Made by a program: the position numbers and the translations under genes. Below, one piece after another: positions 35 through 9,882 of a stretch of 64,000 nucleotides of DNA. Under the pieces are notes generated by a model. The model was not told the origin of the DNA, searched no databases, and saw only the letters and a program-made list of their open reading frames with translations. This DNA comes from an uncultured Aquabacterium sp. (lineage in GTDB: Bacteria; Pseudomonadota; Gammaproteobacteria; Burkholderiales; Burkholderiaceae_C): assembly GCF_947366995.1 (NCBI RefSeq), contig NZ_CANBCC010000003.1, forward strand, positions 1 to 64,000, written 5' to 3'. Position 1 is the first letter of the stretch. Each line of letters opens with the position of its first letter.

Positions 35-814
35 TCACACCCCGGTGCCCCGCTTGACAAGCGGGAAATACCACGCATGCGGCAGGTGCTGCATCAGCTT
101 GAGCCACAGGGTGAAGCGGCGGGGGAAGTGGATCTCGTAGTGCCCGCGTTGCCAGCCCTGCACGATGGCCTCGGCGGCCTGCGCCGGCGTGAGCAGGGCC
201 GGCATCGTGAAGTCGTTGGCTGCGGTCATGGGGGTCTGCACGAAGCCGGGATTGACGACGGACACGCCGATGCCGAGCGGCGCCAGGTCGAGGTAGAGTA
301 CATCGGCCAGGTTGTGCAGCGCCGCCTTGGTCGGCCCGTAGGCCAGCGCCTTGGGCAGACCACGGTAGCCTGCCACGCTGGCCACGAGGCTGAGGTGGCC
401 GCCGCCCTGCGCACGCAGCGTAGGCAAGACCGCCGACACCAGACGCAGCGCCCCCTCGTAATTCACCTGCAGGTGGCGCAAGGCCTCGTCAAGATCGAAG
501 TCCTCGGCGCGCATGGGCTGGTAGTGGCCGGCACAGTAAGCGACAAGGTCGAGCCGGCCAGAAGGCGACCACGCCATCAGCCGATCATGGGCGGCCTGCA
601 GCGCGCCGGGCTCGGTCGCATCCACCGACAGTGCGAGGCTGCCCGGGTGGGCCCGGGCAAAAGCATCGAGCGCCGCCGTCTGCCGCCCCGACACCGCCAC
701 CCGCGCGCCCAGCGCATGCAGCCGGGCGGCGGTGGCCTGGCCGATGCCACTGGACGCGCCCACCAGCCAGACGGTGCGGCCCTGCCAGTCGGTCACGGGG
801 GGGTTGAGCGCCAT
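35..814 (-). CDS. SDR family NAD(P)-dependent oxidoreductase
   Basis: A classical short-chain dehydrogenase/reductase of 259 residues, which is full length for the family. The cofactor loop GASSGIGQ lies at residues 19-26. The catalytic pair is Y159 and K163 (YGPTK), with the serine at S142 or S146. The usual NNAG is altered to YCAG (93-96). It is the last gene visible in a leftward operon with a DUF3833 lipoprotein, an MFS carrier, a Cfa-like methyltransferase, DUF1365 and an FAD oxidase. The same set co-occurs in light- or singlet-oxygen-induced clusters of other Proteobacteria. The substrate cannot be read from sequence; a lipid-derived alcohol or ketone is an inference from context. Confidence 0.9.
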   Translation of the reverse strand: MALNPPVTDWQGRTVWLVGASSGIGQATAARLHALGARVAVSGRQTAALDAFARAHPGSLALSVDATEPGALQAAHDRLMAWSPSGRLDLVAYCAGHYQPMRAEDFDLDEALRHLQVNYEGALRLVSAVLPTLRAQGGGHLSLVASVAGYRGLPKALAYGPTKAALHNLADVLYLDLAPLGIGVSVVNPGFVQTPMTAANDFTMPALLTPAQAAEAIVQGWQRGHYEIHFPRRFTLWLKLMQHLPHAWYFPLVKRGTGV

Positions 815-835
815 GCGAACAGCTCCTGCGAGGCG

Positions 836-1432
836 TCAGGGTTTGTGGAAAGACAGCGTGACCTCGCCCAGCGTGATGCCGAACTTGCTCATCACCGCCT
901 TGTTGAGCATCACGTGCTCGTCCATGAGGTACATCCAGTCGTCGAACTGCACGTGGTAGATGCGGCCGTCGACCGGCAGCGCCAGCGTGTAGCGCCAGTT
1001 CAGCGCATTGCCGGCCGATTGCCCCATGGCCTGGCCGACCACATCGTCGGCCTCGCCCTGCCAGCGGCCCTGTCCCAGGTCCGTCAGGCGCCAGACACGG
1101 CGCTGCGTGGTGCCGTCGCTGTAGACAAAGTCTTCTTCGAGCACGCCATGCGCGCCGCCCCAGCGGCCTACGAGCTTCACCGTGAAACGCTTGACGACGC
1201 GGCCCGAGCGGTCGGTGAAGACGCCATGCGCAGTCAGCGGGCCATTGAAGTAGCTGCGCAGATCGAGCACCGGCTCTTCGGTGGCGTAGTCGGACGGCGC
1301 CGGGGCGGAGGCACAGCCGGCCAGACCACCGATCAGCGCCAGGCCACCGGCCCCGATGGCGGACAGCATGCGGCGGCGCCCCGGCGAGGGGGGGAGGGCC
1401 TGGGCGAAATCGGGCAGAGGATGAGGTTTCAT
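836..1432 (-). CDS. DUF3833 family lipoprotein
   Basis: A 198-residue protein with an arginine-rich N-terminus (PGRRRM), a hydrophobic stretch and a lipobox LAGC whose cysteine is residue 40, so it should be a lipid-anchored envelope protein. The rest matches the DUF3833 family, which has no assigned reaction but recurs beside cfa, DUF1365 and FAD-oxidase genes. An in-frame GTG 12 bases upstream would add four residues. I chose the ATG because neither start has a clear ribosome site and the ATG gives the usual N-terminus. It lies 21 bases from the SDR gene and 39 bases after the MFS gene, in the same operon. Confidence 0.8.
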   Translation of the reverse strand: MKPHPLPDFAQALPPSPGRRRMLSAIGAGGLALIGGLAGCASAPAPSDYATEEPVLDLRSYFNGPLTAHGVFTDRSGRVVKRFTVKLVGRWGGAHGVLEEDFVYSDGTTQRRVWRLTDLGQGRWQGEADDVVGQAMGQSAGNALNWRYTLALPVDGRIYHVQFDDWMYLMDEHVMLNKAVMSKFGITLGEVTLSFHKP

Positions 1433-1471
1433 GGTGTCCACCACAGCAGGTTGAATCAGGCAACGGGACGC

Positions 1472-2734
1472 TCAGGCCAGCGTCGGGTGGTGCCGCCAGC
1501 GCCAGCACAGGGCCAGCGCCACGAGCTTGAACAGACAGGGCAGGCCGCCATAGACCAGCCCCAGGGCCAGCAGTGCCTCGGGGTCGCGCGCGCCGGGCGT
1601 GTAGCCCAGGGCCTGCAGCAGGGGTAAGGCCAGGCCGGCGGCCAGGGCCAGGTTGAGCTTGGTGGCCCACAGCCACCAGCCGGCAAAGGCCCCCTCGGCC
1701 TGGCCAGCCTGGCCTGCGCGCTGCACCACGCCGGTCAGCAGCGTGCCAGGCGCCGTGAGATCGGCCCCCAGCGCCCAGCCTGCCGCCACACACACCAGCA
1801 GGTAGCCGGTGGTGTCGCCGGCGCCCAGCGCGTTCACGCATGCAAAGGCCGCGGTGGCCAGCGCCATGCCCAGGGCCCAGCTGCGCATCGGCCCCAGCCG
1901 GGCCAGCACGCGCAGCCACCAGGGCACGCTGAGTGCGCCCACCAGGAAGTAAGCACCCAGACACAGCGGCGCCCAGGCAGGGGCCTGCAGGCGGTCGTGG
2001 ATGAAGAACAGCACCAGTGTGGCCGGCACGGCGCTCGCAATGCCGTTGACCAGGAACAGCGCGATCAGCCGCCGGAACCCGGCAAAGCGCCACGGTCGCC
2101 ACAGCGTGCTGGCCGGCAGGGTGGCATGGGCGTCGCCGGTGTGCGCCACCGGGGTCGGCCCGCGCCACAGCGCGAGCAGGCCGATGGCCAGCGTGCAGGC
2201 CAGTGCCACGGCCGTCCAGCCCGGGCCGGCCTGCGTGGCCAGCACGTTGGCGAGCAGCACACCGGCCAGCCCGAAGCCTTCACGCCATGCCACCAACCGC
2301 GCCCGCTGCACCGGCACGCCACCCAACCGCGTGCCCCAAGCCAGATGCGCCACGCTGGCCAGGCTGTAGGCGCCAAACGTGACCAGCAGCGCGACAGCAC
2401 ACCAGCCCAGCAGCGCTCCCTGCCCCCGCACCGGCGGAAAGAACAGCGCCACAAAAGCGAGCACCAGCACGGCGGCGCTCGCCAGCACGGCACCGCGGGC
2501 GCGCGCGGGGCGGCGCAGCAGCCGGTCCACCCACCCACCCAGCCAGGGGTCGATCAAGGCGTCGCCCAGGCGGGTCAGCAACAGGATGGCGCCCAGCAGG
2601 CTCAGGGGCACGCCCAGCGTCTGCCCGTAATGCTGCGGCAGCACCACGTACAGCGGCACCGCCACGAACGCAAGCGGCAGGCCCAGCAGGCCATAGCGCG
2701 CGCTGGCGGCGTGGGGCAGCGGCGTGTCGCTCAT
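1472..2734 (-). CDS. MFS transporter, GPH/MelB-like
   Basis: A 420-residue, highly hydrophobic protein with about twelve predicted membrane helices. Early in the protein it carries RLGDALIDPWLGG, the pattern of the glycoside-pentoside-hexuronide:cation symporter branch of the major facilitator superfamily. The reading frame stays open upstream into the methyltransferase gene, but that stretch is low-complexity antisense sequence. The ATG 10 bases after the cfa-like stop is the credible start (MSDTPL). Carriers of this branch recur in DUF1365/cfa clusters, where their cargo is unknown. Transport of a lipid precursor or pigment is inference only. Confidence 0.85.
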   Translation of the reverse strand: MSDTPLPHAASARYGLLGLPLAFVAVPLYVVLPQHYGQTLGVPLSLLGAILLLTRLGDALIDPWLGGWVDRLLRRPARARGAVLASAAVLVLAFVALFFPPVRGQGALLGWCAVALLVTFGAYSLASVAHLAWGTRLGGVPVQRARLVAWREGFGLAGVLLANVLATQAGPGWTAVALACTLAIGLLALWRGPTPVAHTGDAHATLPASTLWRPWRFAGFRRLIALFLVNGIASAVPATLVLFFIHDRLQAPAWAPLCLGAYFLVGALSVPWWLRVLARLGPMRSWALGMALATAAFACVNALGAGDTTGYLLVCVAAGWALGADLTAPGTLLTGVVQRAGQAGQAEGAFAGWWLWATKLNLALAAGLALPLLQALGYTPGARDPEALLALGLVYGGLPCLFKLVALALCWRWRHHPTLA

Positions 2735-2744
2735 GTCGCGCGCG

Positions 2745-4028
2745 TCAACCCGGCTTGCGCAGCGTGTACTGCACGACGTCGGTGTTGCCCATGTCGAAGG
2801 CGGCTTCGCAGTAGGCCAGGTAGAACTCCCAGATGCGCTGGAAGCGCTCGTCGAAGCCCAGGCGCTGCACCTGCTGGATGTGGCGGTGGAACTCGGCGCG
2901 CCAGCGACGCAGCGTCTCGGCGTAGTCCGGCCCGAAGGCCAGGCTGTTGACCACCTCCAGCCCGGCGCGCGCCGCCTCGGCACGGAAGGCCGCGTCGCTC
3001 GGCAACATGCCCCCCGGGAAGATGTACTGCTGGATGAAGTCGGTCGACTTCACATAGCGGTCGAACAGGTCATCGCGGATGGTGATGGTCTGCAAGCAGG
3101 CGCGCCCACCGGGCTTCAGGCAGCGGTTCAACGTCTGGAAGTAGCTGCCCCAGTACTCCTTGCCCACGGCCTCGAACATCTCGATGGAGACGACGGCGTC
3201 GAAGGGCTCGTCGGCGATGTCGCGGTAGTCCTGCAGCCGCAGGTCGGCCCAGGCCGCCAGTCCGGCGCCCGCCATGCGGTCGCGGGCCCATTGCAGTTGC
3301 TCGGTCGACAGCGTCACCCCGGTGACGTGCGCGCCGCATTCGCGCACGGCGATCTCCGCCAGGCCGCCCCAGCCGCAGCCGATTTCCAGCACGCGCTGGC
3401 CGCCCCCCTCGGCGCACACCCCCGCTTCGCGCAGCGCCCGCCGCACCTTGGCATGCTGCGCGTCGGCCATGGGCTGGTCGAGGTTGCCCTCGAACCAGGC
3501 GCTCGAGTAGCTCATCGTGTGATCCAGCCACAGCCGGTAGAAGGCGTTGCCCAGATCGTAATGCGCGTGGATGTTGCGCCGGCTGTTGGCCCGCGTGTTG
3601 CGGTTGAGCAAGTGACGGATGCGGTAGGCCAGCCGCCCCCACCAGCGCCCGTAGACGGCCGACTCGATCTGCTCGCGGTTGGCAATCAGCACCTTGAGCA
3701 GCGCGGTCAGGTCGGGCGTGGTCCAGTCGCCGGCGATGTAGCCTTCGGCAAAGCCGATGTCACCGGATTTGAGCGCGGCCGAGCACATCGACCAGTTGTG
3801 CAGCCGCAGGCCGGCACGCAACCCGTCGGCACCTGCGCGGGCCTCGCCGAAATGGGCGGTGCTGCCGTCCGGCCATTGGACGTCGAGCACGCCGACGTGC
3901 ATGCGCTTCAGCAGGCGCCACACCATGCGCGCCGCCTGCGGGGCATCGGCCGGCAGGTCGTGCGCGGCGCGGAGGGGCGTCGCAGGCTCGGTCGACGCAG
4001 AAGAAGCCAGGAGGGTGCTGCGGTTCAT
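2745..4028 (-). CDS. Cfa-like SAM-dependent fatty acid methyltransferase
   Basis: A 427-residue member of the cyclopropane-fatty-acyl-phospholipid synthase family. The SAM-binding motif VLEIGCGWGG is at 213-222, HYDLGN at 156-161 and YIFPGG at 335-340. Two residues known to bind the catalytic bicarbonate in E. coli Cfa differ: the cysteine of its YSCAYW is a serine here (YSSAW, S176), and the histidine of its LHTIG is a glutamine (LQTIT, Q313). This leaves open whether the product is a cyclopropane or a methylated fatty acid, as made by the Rhodobacter Ufa enzymes. Its start overlaps the DUF1365 stop by four bases (ATGA), indicating translational coupling. Confidence 0.88.
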   Translation of the reverse strand: MNRSTLLASSASTEPATPLRAAHDLPADAPQAARMVWRLLKRMHVGVLDVQWPDGSTAHFGEARAGADGLRAGLRLHNWSMCSAALKSGDIGFAEGYIAGDWTTPDLTALLKVLIANREQIESAVYGRWWGRLAYRIRHLLNRNTRANSRRNIHAHYDLGNAFYRLWLDHTMSYSSAWFEGNLDQPMADAQHAKVRRALREAGVCAEGGGQRVLEIGCGWGGLAEIAVRECGAHVTGVTLSTEQLQWARDRMAGAGLAAWADLRLQDYRDIADEPFDAVVSIEMFEAVGKEYWGSYFQTLNRCLKPGGRACLQTITIRDDLFDRYVKSTDFIQQYIFPGGMLPSDAAFRAEAARAGLEVVNSLAFGPDYAETLRRWRAEFHRHIQQVQRLGFDERFQRIWEFYLAYCEAAFDMGNTDVVQYTLRKPG

Positions 4029-4855
4029 GGTGTGCGCGGTCCTTGAGGGCTCGGTGCCGGGCTGCCCGTGACGAAGTCGGCGGGCGGATGTGGGGGTTTG
4101 GTGTGAAAGGGCACGCGCTTGAGCCACAGCTGCAAGGCCTGCCAGTGGATGCGGGCCACGACACCCCAGGTCATCAGCGGCCAGCGCCAGATCGCACGGC
4201 GCACCGCCCGGGGCGTGAGGGGCTCGAGCGCCCCGCTGAGCGCGGTCTCGATCAGCGGGCCGTGTGCGTCGTCGTGGTCCACGCGGGCCACGACCCGGTT
4301 GCCCGTGCGCAGGAAGCGAAAGCGGTACCGCCCGCCCAGCGCGCAGAACGGCGATACGTGGAAGACCTTGGCCGCCCGCTGCTCCCGTCCCCACCCGAGC
4401 GACGGCCCCTGCAGGAGGTAGCAATGGCGCTCGCCAAAGGTGTTGTTGACCTCGGCGACGATGGCGTGGAGGGCGCCGTCGGCCCGGTGCACGTACCAGA
4501 AGCTCACGGGCTTGAAGGCATAGCCCAGCACACGGGGGTAGGTCTGGAGCCAGACTTCGCCGCGCGTCAGCGTTTCATCCCAGGCGCCCGCCTCGCGCAG
4601 CAAGCCGTCCAGCCAGGCCAGTGCGTCGGGCCCGCCCGCGCCGTGGTCGGCATCGTGAAAGCTCAACCAGCCGCGCGCATTGCGTCGCACGGCGTCCACG
4701 GGTTGCCTGGCCAGCGCCCGCAGCGGCAGCATCCAGAAGTAGCTCGGGTAGGCGAAGGCGTGCCGCGCCGGCCGAAGCCGTGTGTGGCGCACCTGGCCAA
4801 AGCCGATCAGCGGGCGCACCAGCCCGACGAGATCGGCGGCTTGCGCGAGGCTCAT
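4025..4855 (-). CDS. DUF1365 domain-containing protein
   Basis: A 276-residue protein of the DUF1365 family, starting MSLAQAAD. DUF1365 proteins are almost always encoded between an FAD amine-oxidase-like gene and a cfa-like gene, as here. Homologues in Rhodobacter belong to the singlet-oxygen (RpoE/ChrR) response and are implicated in unusual membrane fatty acids. A GTG nine bases upstream is in frame, but the ATG overlaps the preceding stop as ATGA, so I prefer it. The gene overlaps its neighbours by four bases on both sides. No catalytic motif can be assigned. Confidence 0.88.
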   Translation of the reverse strand: MSLAQAADLVGLVRPLIGFGQVRHTRLRPARHAFAYPSYFWMLPLRALARQPVDAVRRNARGWLSFHDADHGAGGPDALAWLDGLLREAGAWDETLTRGEVWLQTYPRVLGYAFKPVSFWYVHRADGALHAIVAEVNNTFGERHCYLLQGPSLGWGREQRAAKVFHVSPFCALGGRYRFRFLRTGNRVVARVDHDDAHGPLIETALSGALEPLTPRAVRRAIWRWPLMTWGVVARIHWQALQLWLKRVPFHTKPPHPPADFVTGSPAPSPQGPRTP

Positions 4856-6222
4856 GCCGCGCACTCCTGGCTCGCCCGCGCCGGGCCTGCGGAGACGCCC
4901 TCGCGGGACAGCAGGCCGTCGGCCACCGACAGGCCCGACTTGAGGCCGTCCTCATGGAAGCCGTAGCCCGTCCACGCGCCGGCAAACCACAGGCTGCGGC
5001 GGCCCTGGATGCCGGGCAGCGCCTGCTGGGCATCGATCGCGGCCTGGTCGAAGACCGGGTGGGCGTAATCGAACTCGGCCAGCACCTGGGCCGGATCCGG
5101 CTCACGCAGCGGATTCAGCGAGACCACCACCGGCCGGGCCCAGGGCAGCGGTTGCAGGCGGTTGATCAGGTAGTGCAGGCACACGCCGCGGTCTTCCTCG
5201 GTGGGCGTGGGCGCGCGCTCGTAGTTCCAGGCAGCCCAGGCCTTGGGGCGACGCGGCAGCAGCGCGGTGTCGGTGTGCAGGACCGCGCGGTTGCGGTGGT
5301 AGCCGATGGCGCCCAGCACGTTGCGCTCAGGGTCGGTGGCCCCCGCGCCCAGCAAGGTCAGCGCCTGATCGGAGTGACAGGCGAAGACGACCTCGTCAAA
5401 GCGCTCGCCGCCGGCGGCGGTGTGCACCATCACGCCGGCCTCGCCGTGTTCGCCCAGCACCTGGACGCGCTCGACCGGCGTGGCCAGCCGCGCGTCGGCC
5501 AGGCCGTCGAGAACGCGGCGCACATACTGACGCGAGCCCCCGGCCACGGTGTACCACTGCGGTCGGTTTGCCACCTGCAGCAGACCATGGTTGTGACAGA
5601 AGCGGATCAGCGTGGCGATCGGGAACTGCATCATCTGATGCACCGGGCAAGACCAGATGCAGGCCACCATGGGCAGCAGGTAGCCTTCGCGGAAGGACGC
5701 GCTGAAGCCGTGTTCGTCCAGGAAGGCGCCGATCGGCTGACGCAGCGCGGCTTCACTGCCACGCTGGGCCAGTTCAGTGGTGAGCCGGTTGAAGCGCAGC
5801 AGGTCGGACAGCATGCGCCAGAACGCCGGGGACACCAGGTTGCGCCGCTGGGCGAACACCGTGTTCAGCGAGGAGCCGCACCATTCCAGGCCGGCACGCA
5901 GCCCGGCCAGCCCCTGAACCTGGTCGGGGATCTGCACGGAGAACGACATGTCGGACGCGGCGGTGGCCACGCGCAGTTCCTTGAACAACGCGATGAGCTG
6001 CGGATAGGTGCGCTCGTTGAAGACCAGAAAGCCCGTGTCCACCCCATGGGTGACGGGACGCCCGCTGGCGTCAGGCAAGGTCACATCGACCGTGTTGGCA
6101 TGACCGCCAAAATGGCGTCCTGCCTCGAACAGCGTCACGTGGCGGGCGCCAGATGCCTGGCTCAGCCGGTGCGCGGCACCCAGGCCGGCAATGCCGGCGC
6201 CGATGATGGCGATGCGTTTCAT
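4852..6222 (-). CDS. FAD-dependent amine oxidase family oxidoreductase
   Basis: A 456-residue flavoprotein beginning MKRIAIIGAG, with the dinucleotide-binding motif GAGIAGLGAA at residues 8-17 and the downstream FEAGRHFGGHAN stretch typical of the amine-oxidase/desaturase-like branch. It is the first gene of the lipid operon. AGAGGA lies about 10 bases before the ATG, and a promoter region with a strong dyad lies upstream (6265-6297). Family members beside DUF1365 and cfa are thought to oxidise or desaturate acyl chains, but the reaction here is not established. Confidence 0.88.
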   Translation of the reverse strand: MKRIAIIGAGIAGLGAAHRLSQASGARHVTLFEAGRHFGGHANTVDVTLPDASGRPVTHGVDTGFLVFNERTYPQLIALFKELRVATAASDMSFSVQIPDQVQGLAGLRAGLEWCGSSLNTVFAQRRNLVSPAFWRMLSDLLRFNRLTTELAQRGSEAALRQPIGAFLDEHGFSASFREGYLLPMVACIWSCPVHQMMQFPIATLIRFCHNHGLLQVANRPQWYTVAGGSRQYVRRVLDGLADARLATPVERVQVLGEHGEAGVMVHTAAGGERFDEVVFACHSDQALTLLGAGATDPERNVLGAIGYHRNRAVLHTDTALLPRRPKAWAAWNYERAPTPTEEDRGVCLHYLINRLQPLPWARPVVVSLNPLREPDPAQVLAEFDYAHPVFDQAAIDAQQALPGIQGRRSLWFAGAWTGYGFHEDGLKSGLSVADGLLSREGVSAGPARASQECAA

Positions 6223-6264
6223 GGGTGGGGTCCTCTGGGCCGACCGGCAGGGCTGCCGATTAAA

Positions 6265-6297
6265 TTACTGTTCGGTCATATCATAACCGAACGGTAA
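6265..6297. promoter_or_regulatory. Dyad operator candidate upstream of the lipid operon
   Basis: Two 12-base arms, TTACTGTTCGGT (6265-6276) and ACCGAACGGTAA (6286-6297), pair at 11 of 12 positions around a 9-base spacer. On the minus strand the spacer holds TATGAT (6285-6280), a good -10 element, about 60 bases before the FAD-oxidase start. A regulator bound here would cover the promoter. The nearby LitR/CarH-type protein is the natural candidate; that link is inferred. Confidence 0.6.
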
Positions 6298-6335
6298 CAG
6301 ATGCGCCACGGGTGGCGCTGGAATAGCAGGTTTCT

Positions 6336-6932
6336 TCAGCGAGCCTGGCTCAGCAGACGCTCGATGTCCTGGACAAACTCCTTGTCGTCCGGCGAAGTCA
6401 TGCTGCTGTAAGCACTCACCGAGCGCCCATCCCGGGCGATGAGGTACTTGTAGAAGTTCCACTTAGGCGAGGTACCGCTGAGCGCGGTCAATTCCTTGTG
6501 CAACGGGTTCGCCGCACTGCCCCGGACGCTGCTTTTCGCAAACATCGGGAACTTCACGCCGTAGGTGTTGTTGCAGAACTCGGCGATCTCCTTCGCCGCG
6601 CCAGGTTCCTGGTTGCCGAAGTCGTTCGACGGGAACCCGAGCACCACCAGGCCTCGGTCCTTGTAACGGCTGTACAGCGCCTCCAGGCCGGCGTACTGCT
6701 TCGTGAAGCCGCAGTAGCTCGCGGTGTTGACCACCAGGACGACGCGACCGCTGTACTGACACAGCGACTGCGGCTTCTCGTCCTGCAGGCGGGGAAAGGT
6801 CTTGTCCAGCAACGCCGGGCAGGCCGCCGGACTGGACGCTGGCACGGGCGGCGGCGCGGCGAGCGCAGACAGGGAAGCCGACAGGCACGCGGCCGTCACG
6901 AGCATGAACCGCTTGAGGGCGTGTGGCTTCAT
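6336..6932 (-). CDS. Exported glutathione peroxidase (cysteine type)
   Basis: A 198-residue glutathione-peroxidase-family thiol peroxidase with an N-terminal signal peptide (cleavage near ALAA, residue 26). The peroxidatic cysteine is C74 in NTASYCGFT. GFPSNDFGNQEPG and the WNF element (PKWNFYKYL) complete the active site. Bacterial members usually use thioredoxin-like reductants rather than glutathione. Export suggests it reduces lipid or other peroxides in the periplasm. It points the same way as the lipid operon and is divergent from the LitR-like gene, so it plausibly belongs to one photo-oxidative stress response. AGGA lies about 10 bases before the ATG. Confidence 0.92.
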   Translation of the reverse strand: MKPHALKRFMLVTAACLSASLSALAAPPPVPASSPAACPALLDKTFPRLQDEKPQSLCQYSGRVVLVVNTASYCGFTKQYAGLEALYSRYKDRGLVVLGFPSNDFGNQEPGAAKEIAEFCNNTYGVKFPMFAKSSVRGSAANPLHKELTALSGTSPKWNFYKYLIARDGRSVSAYSSMTSPDDKEFVQDIERLLSQAR

Positions 6933-6950
6933 CTTGTCATCCTTTTTGTC

Positions 6951-6979
6951 TTGGTCAAAACGCCGGTTGGACCTATATT
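6951..6979 (+). promoter_or_regulatory. Candidate promoter of the LitR-like gene
   Basis: TTGGTC (6951-6956), a 17-base spacer and TATATT (6974-6979) on the plus strand, about 125 bases before the regulator start. Its -10 overlaps the -10 of the opposing promoter proposed for the peroxidase gene. Confidence 0.4.
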
Positions 6980-7003
6980 AGCGACTCGACCAGTGTTCGG
7001 CAA
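6975..7003 (-). promoter_or_regulatory. Candidate promoter of the glutathione peroxidase gene
   Basis: On the minus strand, TTGCCG (7003-6998), a 17-base spacer and TAATAT (6980-6975), about 43 bases before the peroxidase ATG. The -35 region overlaps TGTTCGG, the core also present in the dyad at 6265-6297, so one regulator could act on both. Confidence 0.45.
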
Positions 7004-7103
7004 TGGCGCGTCCAGTGCGCCGTGACCCTGCACACGGTTTGTCCAGTCTTGTCGAGTCAGGGGCTGATACGCGGGCCCCGCCGTTCCGGATGCAGCCACC
7101 AGC

Positions 7104-8132
7104 ATGAACCCGCCCCTGATGATGTCGATCGCCGCCGTCGAACGCGACACCGGCCTGAGCAAGGACACCTTGCGAATCTGGGAGCGCCGCTACGGTTTCC
7201 CGAATCCGGCGCGGGATCGCCAGGGCGAACGCTGCTACCCCGTCGAACAAGTGGAGCGCCTGCGCCTGATCAAGCGGCTGCTGGACGTGGGACACCGCCC
7301 GGGCCGCATCGTGCAGTTGCCCACCGACGACCTGCAGACACTGGCCGATCGCAGCGCCGACGCACAGGGCCTGGGCCGCATGTCGCCTGCTGGACGCTCG
7401 CGCCTGGAAACCGCGCCGACCTGGGCGCCCGGTGCCATCGTCAGCATGCCCGCCCATGCCGACGAGACCTGGGTCGGCCCTTGCCTCGCGTTGATCGATC
7501 AGCACGATCACCATGGGCTGCACCGCCATCTGCGGCATGCAGTGGCTTCGCTGGGTCTGCTGTCCTTCGTCACCGCGGTGGCCACGCCGCTGCTGGCCCT
7601 CGTGGGCGATGGCTGGCTGCGCGGGCGCTTTCAGATCGCGCAGGAGCATTGGGTGAGTCAGCTCGTGCAGCAAGTGCTGCAGGGCGGACTGTCGACCCTG
7701 CCCGAGCCCCTGCCCCAGCAGGCGCCCCGCGTGCTGCTGACCACCTTGCCGGGCGAGCCCCACGCGCTCGGGGTGCTGACGGTCGAAGTGGCACTGGCCG
7801 TCTGGCAGGCGCAGCCCATCAACCTGGGCGCCCAGACCCCGCTGTGGGATCTGGTGCATGCGTGCGCCGCACACCGCGCCGACGTGGTCTCACTGGGCTT
7901 CAGCAGCGCCGCCCCCGCCACGCTCATCCAGGACCTGCTGCCCGAACTGCGCGCCAAGCTGCCCGCCTCGGTGGCGGTGTGGGTCGGTGGACGGCACCCC
8001 ATGCTGGCGCGGCGCCCCGTGCCCGGCGTCACCGTGCTCGGCGACCTGTCAGCGTTGCAGGAGGCCCTGCTGCGGTGGCGCCAGGGGCGGCTGGCCCCGG
8101 CGCGGGCAGTGCCCTCCCCTGAAGGCGACTGA
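7104..8132 (+). CDS. LitR/CarH-type MerR regulator, predicted B12 photoreceptor
   Basis: A 342-residue regulator with an N-terminal MerR helix-turn-helix (residues about 8-75; SKDTLRIWERRYGFP) and a C-terminal B12-binding region. The key CarH residues are present: the W-x9-EH motif as W171, E181 and H182; the ExHxxG loop as E218, H220 and G223, with H220 the expected cobalt ligand; S263 in VSLGF; and GG at 295-296. In CarH, adenosylcobalamin holds a repressor tetramer in the dark and light breaks it. The gene is divergent from glutathione peroxidase and the lipid operon, its likely targets. Alternative ATGs exist at 7119 and 7122, none with a good ribosome site. Confidence 0.85.
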   Translation: MNPPLMMSIAAVERDTGLSKDTLRIWERRYGFPNPARDRQGERCYPVEQVERLRLIKRLLDVGHRPGRIVQLPTDDLQTLADRSADAQGLGRMSPAGRSRLETAPTWAPGAIVSMPAHADETWVGPCLALIDQHDHHGLHRHLRHAVASLGLLSFVTAVATPLLALVGDGWLRGRFQIAQEHWVSQLVQQVLQGGLSTLPEPLPQQAPRVLLTTLPGEPHALGVLTVEVALAVWQAQPINLGAQTPLWDLVHACAAHRADVVSLGFSSAAPATLIQDLLPELRAKLPASVAVWVGGRHPMLARRPVPGVTVLGDLSALQEALLRWRQGRLAPARAVPSPEGD

Positions 8133-8296: not shown

Positions 8297-8833
8297 TCAG
8301 GCGTTGGCAGCGGCGCGGCGACGCTTGTACAGCGCGGTGCCGACCAGGCCCAGGCCGCCCAGGGCCAGGGTCAGGGACTCGGGCTCGGGGACGGGGGCTG
8401 CGGTGATTTCCATCGAGTACGAACCCAGCGGGCCGGGGCCGGTGCCGATGACGTTGCCTTTGACAATCAGATAGAAGTGCGACGTCGGCGTCGTGAAGGT
8501 GTCCACGCTGAGCGAGTCAGCGCCAGCAACCGACGAAGGGGTGCCAGACCACAGCGGCGTGCCGGTGCTCGTATAGAAGGTCACGGCATCGGTGCCGAAG
8601 GTGATGTCCTTGACGTTCTTGAACTTCAGTTCGGTGAAGGCCCAGCCCACTTCGGCCTGCTGGTCCGGGAAGGACACCGGATCCAGGTAGTAGTCGTAGC
8701 GCTGCGTGAAGGTACCTGCCGTGGAGAACGTGGTGCTCGACTTGTAGACCTCGTAGGCCACCAGCGTTTCGGCCGAAGCGGCTGCGGCGGTCAGCGACAG
8801 GACTGCGGCAAGAGCCAGAGAAGACAATTTCAT
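8297..8833 (-). CDS. PEP-CTERM sorting domain-containing protein
   Basis: A 178-residue exported protein: signal peptide to about residue 21 (AAAASA), a beta-rich central part of unknown function, then a textbook C-terminal PEP-CTERM tail. The tail has VPEP at 148-151, a hydrophobic helix at 153-169 and KRRR at 170-173. Such tails are processed by exosortase (EpsH/XrtA type) in bacteria that make exopolysaccharide. The GSYSMEI stretch before the tail resembles the FxDxF-type PEP-CTERM group. No exosortase gene is in the window. GGGAG precedes the ATG. Confidence 0.88.
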   Translation of the reverse strand: MKLSSLALAAVLSLTAAAASAETLVAYEVYKSSTTFSTAGTFTQRYDYYLDPVSFPDQQAEVGWAFTELKFKNVKDITFGTDAVTFYTSTGTPLWSGTPSSVAGADSLSVDTFTTPTSHFYLIVKGNVIGTGPGPLGSYSMEITAAPVPEPESLTLALGGLGLVGTALYKRRRAAANA

Positions 8834-9162: not shown

Positions 9163-9882
9163 TTGACCGCCCTGCCCCCGCGCCTCCGCGCGTTGCCAGG
9201 CTCCGTGCACGACGCCATGCCGGCCTGCGCTGCATGCCCCACCCGGGGTACCTGCCTGTTCACCGGGCTGGGCGAGGGCCCGCTGGCCGACGGCGCACGT
9301 TCGAGCGTCACCAGCCGCGCCCTTCGTCTGGCCGAGCAGGTCGAGCGCGAAGGGCAGCCCGGCCTGCGGGTGCACGTGGTGCGGCAGGGCACGATCAAGC
9401 TGCAGCACCAGCACCCCAACGGCCACGTGCGGATCGTGCGGCTGCTGGGGCCCGGCCATGTGTTCGGGCTTGAGGCGCTGCTGCACGAGCCCTACAGCCA
9501 CGATGCCGCGGCCGTGGGGCAGGTCACCGTGTGCTCGGCGCCCAGCGGCGCGCTGCTGACGTGGGCAGACCATGACCCCCAGGCCTACGCCAACCTCATG
9601 CGGCACTGGAAGGCCAACGTCGACCAGGCCGATTTCGTGATCGACAGCCTGTCGACCGGCACGGCACGCGAACGCGTCTGGCGCCTGCTGCATCACCTCG
9701 CGCGCCACCAGCCGGGTGGCGCGTTCGTGGCCCCCTCGCGGGCCGACATGGGTGCGCTCCTGGGCCTGACGACGGAAACAGCGAGCCGCACGATGGCCGC
9801 GTTTGCCCGCGAAGGGGTGCTCACGGAACGGCGTGGGCTGATGTACCTGACCGCAGGGCGAGGTCACGCCGACGCGGCCTGA
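9163..9882 (+). CDS. FNR-like Crp/Fnr regulator with four iron-sulfur cysteines
   Basis: A 239-residue regulator. The effector domain carries C22, C25 and C31 (C-x2-C-x5-C) and C124. These match the spacing of the E. coli FNR ligands C20, C23, C29 and C122, including the 93-residue distance to the last one, so a [4Fe-4S] oxygen-sensing cluster is expected. The C-terminal helix-turn-helix includes GLTTETASR (about 201-209), keeping the E-x2-SR contacts of FNR. The start is TTG with AGGAG about 8 bases upstream. The gene converges on the CoA-transferase gene. The regulon is unknown; dyads in the upstream gap suggest autoregulation. Confidence 0.88.
   Translation: MTALPPRLRALPGSVHDAMPACAACPTRGTCLFTGLGEGPLADGARSSVTSRALRLAEQVEREGQPGLRVHVVRQGTIKLQHQHPNGHVRIVRLLGPGHVFGLEALLHEPYSHDAAAVGQVTVCSAPSGALLTWADHDPQAYANLMRHWKANVDQADFVIDSLSTGTARERVWRLLHHLARHQPGGAFVAPSRADMGALLGLTTETASRTMAAFAREGVLTERRGLMYLTAGRGHADAA

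Follow-up and report, generated by a model that had tools for sequence, protein, structure and literature searches.

A LitR/CarH-type regulator gene conserved beside a glutathione-peroxidase-type gene and a candidate furan-fatty-acid operon in Aquabacterium and other Burkholderiales

Does a vitamin B12-dependent light sensor control the genes for an antioxidant membrane lipid in Aquabacterium? The question is raised by the first 8132 bases of a 64,000-nucleotide stretch of DNA from an uncultured Aquabacterium sp. (contig NZ_CANBCC010000003.1 of assembly GCF_947366995.1; the whole stretch is hereafter called the window), in which a LitR/CarH-type MerR regulator gene (litR) diverges from a glutathione-peroxidase-type gene (gpx) and a six-gene operon. 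A first-pass annotation had read these genes as a predicted B12 photoreceptor beside a membrane-lipid modification operon and an exported peroxidase. Our analysis confirmed that observation and partly supported its interpretation: the LitR-gpx-operon arrangement is real and conserved, and control by light is a plausible hypothesis for which a candidate LitR operator can now be named.

Conservation of the litR-gpx-operon arrangement

The eight genes and their families were as first annotated, with an ATG at the start of each gene and agreeing Pfam matches. The features to which the text refers are as follows.

35-814, minus strand: SDR oxidoreductase, last operon gene within the window (Pfam adh_short, 118.4 bits; same operon in relatives)
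836-1432, minus strand: DUF3833 protein (Pfam DUF3833, 229.5 bits)
1472-2734, minus strand: MFS_2/GPH-type transporter (Pfam MFS_2, 140.7 bits)
2745-4028, minus strand: CFA-like S-adenosylmethionine methyltransferase (CMAS), proposed UfaM (Pfam CMAS, 275.3 bits)
4025-4855, minus strand: DUF1365 protein, proposed UfaO (Pfam DUF1365, 260.2 bits)
4852-6222, minus strand: amino-oxidase-type protein binding flavin adenine dinucleotide (FAD), proposed UfaD (Pfam Amino_oxidase, NAD_binding_8)
6267-6295, minus strand: candidate TetR-type operator of two ACYnnnnRGT palindromes upstream of the FAD gene; tracks the TetR gene
6336-6932, minus strand: glutathione-peroxidase-type protein (gpx) with a signal-like N-terminus (Pfam GSHPx, 117.3 bits)
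6946-6958, no strand: proposed LitR box TTGTCTTGGTCAA, an exact match to the palindrome TTGWCYWRGWCAA, conserved upstream of litR
6952-6979, plus strand: promoter-like site toward litR, its first hexamer overlapping the box (consensus scan, 9/12 matches)
6975-7003, minus strand: possible gpx promoter TTGCCG-17-TAATAT (read by eye with the letters checked; the consensus scan did not report it)
7104-8132, plus strand: LitR/CarH-type MerR regulator (litR) with B12-type domains (Pfam/NCBIfam profiles, CarH alignment)

The six operon genes on the minus strand are separated by 4-bp overlaps or by gaps of 10-39 bp, a tight spacing that fits a single operon, and gpx lies on the same strand, 113 bp before the FAD gene. 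Since base 1 of the window is also base 1 of its contig (C3), the 3' end of the operon is cut; in the relative G013, whose LitR is 95% identical, a SnoaL-like gene comes after the SDR gene. The gpx protein scored below the cut-offs of the NCBIfam Gpx models, and its export is predicted from a by-eye judgement of the N-terminus. On the other side, litR is adjoined by genes for a PEP-CTERM protein (8297-8833) and a CRP/FNR-type regulator (9163-9882), which were also found near litR in G013, G007 and L173.

Linkage of litR, gpx and the FAD-led operon was found across the Burkholderiales. Among the matches listed, the nearest named LitR loci belong to Aquabacterium species and other Burkholderiales, and the 80 named loci used here are the best 80 of 575 confirmed candidates, picked by LitR similarity; they are related by descent and many are cut by contig ends, and their counts carry no claim of significance. 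The FAD gene was present in 73 of them, DUF1365 in 70, CFA in 67 and GPX in 48; of the accessory genes, MFS was present in 52, DUF3833 in 50 and SDR in 48. When the 69 loci with more than 3 kb of sequence upstream of litR were considered, the FAD gene was divergent from litR in 68, the exception being L219, and DUF1365, CFA and GPX were present in 68, 67 and 42, respectively. Of the 37 genomes of the genus (the window's own included), 13 carry this LitR, in one case divided between contigs, and a DUF1365 match is present in 33; the order litR, gpx, FAD gene, DUF1365, CFA-like was seen in all 13 LitR-bearing genomes.

Other genes recur at these loci. A ferritin-like protein was found in 49 of the 80 (an example is L074:11797-12681, with weak FA_desaturase_2/AurF matches), often after litR, and is not beside litR in the window, G013 or G007. 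At L093 and L094 the FAD gene is separated from litR (or gpx) by a FolE2-type GTP cyclohydrolase gene; in Pseudomonas, folE is a light-related gene. Photolyase was rejected as a LitR-specific partner, PF04244 having been found in 28 of 61 genomes, LitR-less ones included. The records L222 and L235, both metagenome-assembled genomes labelled Bordetella parapertussis, have litR loci like those of other Burkholderiales and are possibly mislabelled.

A candidate LitR box and the control of the operon

The palindrome TTGWCYWRGWCAA is common to the litR-gpx stretches of the relatives. Within 260 bp ahead of the start of the tblastn match, which is not a verified start codon, 66 of the 80 named loci have it before litR with at most one mismatch, and 37 have it exactly. 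The corresponding numbers were 3 and 0 in 1600 dinucleotide shuffles and, likewise, 3 and 0 in 80 stretches taken from inside litR. Outside Aquabacterium the box was present in 58 of 72 loci (exact in 29), which do not form a strict hold-out, and the test was not blind because the box had been defined after viewing the Aquabacterium and several order-level loci. Where boxes occurred in pairs within a locus, 23 of 37 pairs were spaced 62-65 bp apart, and in 15 of those 23 a TATA-type string lies between them. Linking the box to LitR was its distribution among the gpx-bearing Aquabacterium loci: it was found upstream of gpx in all 13 that have litR and in none of the six that do not. In a tree of the three Ufa-like proteins (support values unread) these six form two groups nested among LitR-bearing species, a placement that fits two losses of litR together with its box. 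In the window, the box overlaps the predicted litR promoter and sits just downstream of the gpx promoter read by eye.

Exact boxes number four in the genome of the window, including the one at gpx, and the idea of a large LitR regulon was set aside on this count. Two, at C4:61013 and C30:16049, carry no gene assignment. The fourth, an exact TTGTCCAGGACAA at about position 1500 of L166 (G000:C4:65080-65092), lies between two open reading frames that we take to be gmk and rpoZ, and may be there by chance. Across the genus, exact boxes outnumbered the reversed control in the 13 LitR-bearing genomes (54 vs 14) and matched it in the 24 others (58 vs 59); because the gpx boxes themselves contribute to the 54 and composition was uncorrected, these regulon-wide counts were not used as proof.

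The case that LitR acts through this box on the whole neighbourhood is weakened by several findings. The box is missing, at up to one mismatch, from 14 of the 80 named loci; it is absent upstream of gpx at the order-level loci G037 and G053, which have both litR and gpx; and the upstream partner box in the window, about 63 bp away, is a half-site only. The gap separating gpx from the FAD gene contains a hairpin. In addition, the operon has an upstream stretch of its own, which carries the TetR-type element at 6267-6295. This stretch folds better than its shuffles (z -2.79), and an RNA role for the element, although set aside, may still apply.

The TetR-type element is the basis of the alternative that has to be weighed first, namely that the TetR regulator encoded on contig C26 (G000:C26:31059-31661, L102), away from the operon, governs the six genes, and that LitR controls only gpx and itself, in a neighbourhood that was inherited without forming a single light regulon. 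We regard this as unlikely, if well worth entertaining. The element was found at 20 of the 23 Aquabacterium loci with one TetR gene in the genome and at none of the nine without (32 loci, window included, of the 33 genus genomes with a DUF1365 match), as well as at two of three order-level loci with TetR and none of six without, and it arose in one of 8200 mononucleotide shuffles; moreover, many species that lack LitR have the TetR and FAD genes in divergent orientation. For the wider comparison, 40 regions were taken from 45 genomes with a DUF1365 match. However, the element was defined post hoc, after the stretches upstream of the FAD gene had been viewed, so this test was not blind either, and three TetR-bearing Aquabacterium genomes (G025, G012 and G010) lack it. 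Also speaking against control by TetR alone, gpx and the FAD gene point the same way across their short gap, no terminator-like site was found in a scan of 6150-7200, and other Burkholderiales without this TetR retain litR divergent from the operon. Two observations may be recorded here: in G025 (L079) an exact LitR box (C55:65698-65710) stands directly before the FAD gene, where others have the TetR-type element, and the TetR gene on C26 stands behind a gene that by eye resembles a PhoD-type phosphatase.

Three designs are thus present in the genus. Some genomes have TetR alone; others have LitR alone, with a FAD gene that nearly touches gpx, as in seven Aquabacterium genomes that lack the TetR gene; and a third group, to which the window belongs, has both regulators. 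Given the TetR-type element ahead of its FAD gene, the operon of the window is probably controlled by LitR indirectly or jointly with TetR, and light probably acts there directly on gpx and litR and on the operon by read-through. A role of LitR in this neighbourhood is supported by the gene linkage and by the litR-associated palindrome of the gpx/litR region, and direct, sole control of the operon by LitR is improbable.

The predicted B12 pocket and the proposed lipid product

If LitR is to act as a light switch, it should have the B12 pocket of a photoreceptor. Its MerR_1 match, at 54 bits, is above the Pfam cut-off, and its alignment covers the CarH chains in both parts, the MerR head and the B12 domains. 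Among 81 aligned LitRs (that of the window and those of the 80 named loci), G168, W171, E181, H182, E218, H220, G242, G295 and G296 are invariant, P246 is kept in 80 and G223 in 79, and Gly is found at G217 in only 43. W171, E181-H182 and H220 of the window align with W131, E141-H142 and H177 of Thermus thermophilus CarH (residue numbers of CarH taken from PMC10442372 and PMC11796333). GxxW, EH, GxxH and GxxxP have been described as the signature of light-responsive B12 domains (PMC11796333), and the LitR of the window has the whole of it, in G168-W171, E181-H182, G217-H220 and G242-P246. The motifs singled out in the first-pass annotation, W171-x9-E181-H182, E218-x-H220-x2-G223 and G295-G296, were therefore borne out, and its S263 was rejected as a B12-motif residue: Ser stands there in 1 of the 81 LitRs, the set that includes the window (2 of 18 in a smaller alignment), and a Ser of CarH aligns at position 265, which is Gly in the window and Ser in 63 of the 81. 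The window's genome has a gene for a BtuR/CobO-type adenosyltransferase; no PduO-type adenosyltransferase was found in it.

Other findings count against a CarH-like photoreceptor. The B12-binding match of LitR (E 1.6e-6) reached 28.4 bits vs a cut-off of 32.1, the B12-binding_2 match (E 1e-4) 22.9 bits vs 23, and the NCBIfam CarH equivalog match 115 bits vs 400, although this last model is narrow and its low score bears on whether the protein is CarH, not on its membership of the wider family. Furthermore, the equivalent of CarH His132 is Leu172 in the window, and this position is His in none of the 81 LitRs. His132 is reported to be the light-state ligand that gives the bis-His state of CarH, and the H132A variant mostly remains tetrameric under light (PMC10442372). 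It could be argued from this that LitR senses the cobalamin form, the redox state or oxidants instead of light, with a B12 pocket but without CarH-type photorelease, the more so as oxidants have been put forward as the signal for a MerR-like regulator of Vibrio cholerae under blue light (PMC5241685). We think this improbable: CtMerR carries Arg at the His132 position and is still reported to be light-responsive, the residue there varies among other light-responsive B12 domains (PMC11796333), and light-related genes cluster with litR (DPRP photolyase at 15 and FolE2 at 14 of the 80 named loci). The example of CtMerR implies that a missing His132 would alter the expected photochemistry and leave photoreception possible. 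On the strength of the signature, the key residues and the BtuR/CobO gene, LitR may well bind B12 and respond to light; the missing equivalent of His132 sets it apart from CarH.

The product of the operon, previously given as unknown, can be proposed because its core genes correspond to those of a furan-fatty-acid pathway already described, in which UfaM methylates vaccenate, UfaD desaturates and UfaO, a DUF1365 protein, is needed for oxygen insertion from O2, yielding a 9M5-furan fatty acid that vanishes upon exposure to singlet oxygen (PMC7380195). The FAD, DUF1365 and CFA-like proteins, which are encoded by adjacent genes in the window and occur together also in relatives, are proposed to correspond to UfaD, UfaO and UfaM by family and gene set, and the lipid product would be a furan fatty acid; the DUF1365 gene is the only copy in the window's genome (E <=0.001). 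That the product is instead a different modified acyl chain, be it cyclopropane, methyl-branched or diene, seems to us a poor prospect. In its favour are the assignment of the enzymes by family and gene set, the unassigned role of the accessory genes, and the NCBIfam matches of the CFA-like protein, the best of which are cyclopropane synthases, all below cut-off. Against it stand the joint presence of all three pathway enzyme types here and in relatives, the identity of DUF1365 as the UfaO domain (PMC7380195), and another CMAS gene, located elsewhere in the genome, that could supply cyclopropanes.

Proposed mechanism and comparison with known systems

We infer the following scheme, which we consider somewhat better than an even prospect as a whole. 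In the dark, adenosylcobalamin-loaded LitR would bind TTGWCYWRGWCAA between the divergent litR and gpx genes and repress both. Light would break the cobalt-carbon bond, upon which LitR would release the DNA and gpx and litR would be transcribed, with transcripts from the gpx promoter reading on into ufaD-ufaO-ufaM-MFS-DUF3833-SDR. The first three operon products would turn phospholipid-bound vaccenate, by methylation, desaturation and oxygenation, into a furan fatty acid able to quench singlet oxygen, and the peroxidase would remove peroxides. With a TetR-type operator in the operon's own upstream stretch, light would be one of two inputs. More tentatively, we speculate that Burkholderiales harbor a distinct and widespread subclass of B12 light repressors without the bis-His state, in which two TTGWCYWRGWCAA boxes about six helical turns apart bracket overlapping divergent promoters, so that a single LitR assembly would silence gpx and litR in the dark and allow the antioxidant-lipid programme in light. 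If true, a B12 light sensor would be tied to furan-fatty-acid genes across the Burkholderiales, with a concrete operator and a lipid predicted, and there would be CarH-like proteins unable to use the proposed His132 ligand switch, which bears on how light triggers release. No B12-type LitR beside furan-fatty-acid genes in Burkholderiales and no TTGWCYWRGWCAA operator was found in the literature searched, which covered few subscription papers.

Compared with class I LitR/CarH of T. thermophilus, the LitR of the window is alike in its MerR head, B12 domains and Trp/Glu-His/His ligand set, and differs in lacking His at the His132 position and in its proposed operator; its gene neighbours gpx and Ufa-type genes, whereas the class I role as reviewed is mainly carotenoid control (PMC9758184). 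The class II LitR of Pseudomonas is likewise a LitR-family repressor, with a light-induced SDR gene, FAD oxidoreductase gene and ufaM, plus folE and photolyase genes; phrB and ufaM are light-induced, the SDR and FAD genes lie in the same cluster, and in the Pseudomonas mendocina system light raises ufaM 25- to 33-fold (PMC9758184). Unlike the LitR proposed here, the class II protein has a LOV protein as its partner, is believed to lack B12 binding and has the operator TGTACA-N12-TGTACA (PMC9758184). TGTACA is absent from 6933-7104 of the window, and this class II operator was set aside.

The association of DUF1365 and cfa genes with photo-oxidative responses elsewhere, put forward in the first-pass annotation, has precedents in the Rhodobacter ufa genes, Shewanella and V. 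cholerae (PMC7380195, PMC4336711, PMC5241685). In V. cholerae, the blue-light response involves a MerR-like protein and ChrR, and cfa is induced (PMC5241685). The Shewanella RpoE2-ChrR regulon resembles the arrangement proposed for the window in placing a periplasmic glutathione peroxidase, PgpD, and cfa under one photo-oxidative regulator, the peroxidase and a cfa/phrB operon being predicted members, and differs in its sigma/anti-sigma control and in having the genes at separate loci (PMC4336711). Control by ChrR/RpoE, as in Rhodobacter or Shewanella, was set aside for the window: ChrR (TIGR02451) had no match in its genome at E <=0.001, and the matches in 28 of 61 genomes were weak, none being above cut-off. 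The accessory genes RSP1089, RSP1088 and RSP1087 we take to encode MFS, DUF3833-like and SDR proteins, with which their lengths of 402, 186 and 245 residues fit. These lengths are published, as is the dispensability of RSP1087-1089 (PMC7380195). In Rhodobacter sphaeroides ufaM lies apart (RSP2144) and the ufa genes are raised by loss of ChrR; in common with the window, the Rhodobacter and Rhodopseudomonas ufaM, ufaD and ufaO genes encode CFA-like, FAD and DUF1365 proteins, and in R. sphaeroides three accessory genes follow ufaD-ufaO, just as they follow the proposed ufa genes here (PMC7380195).

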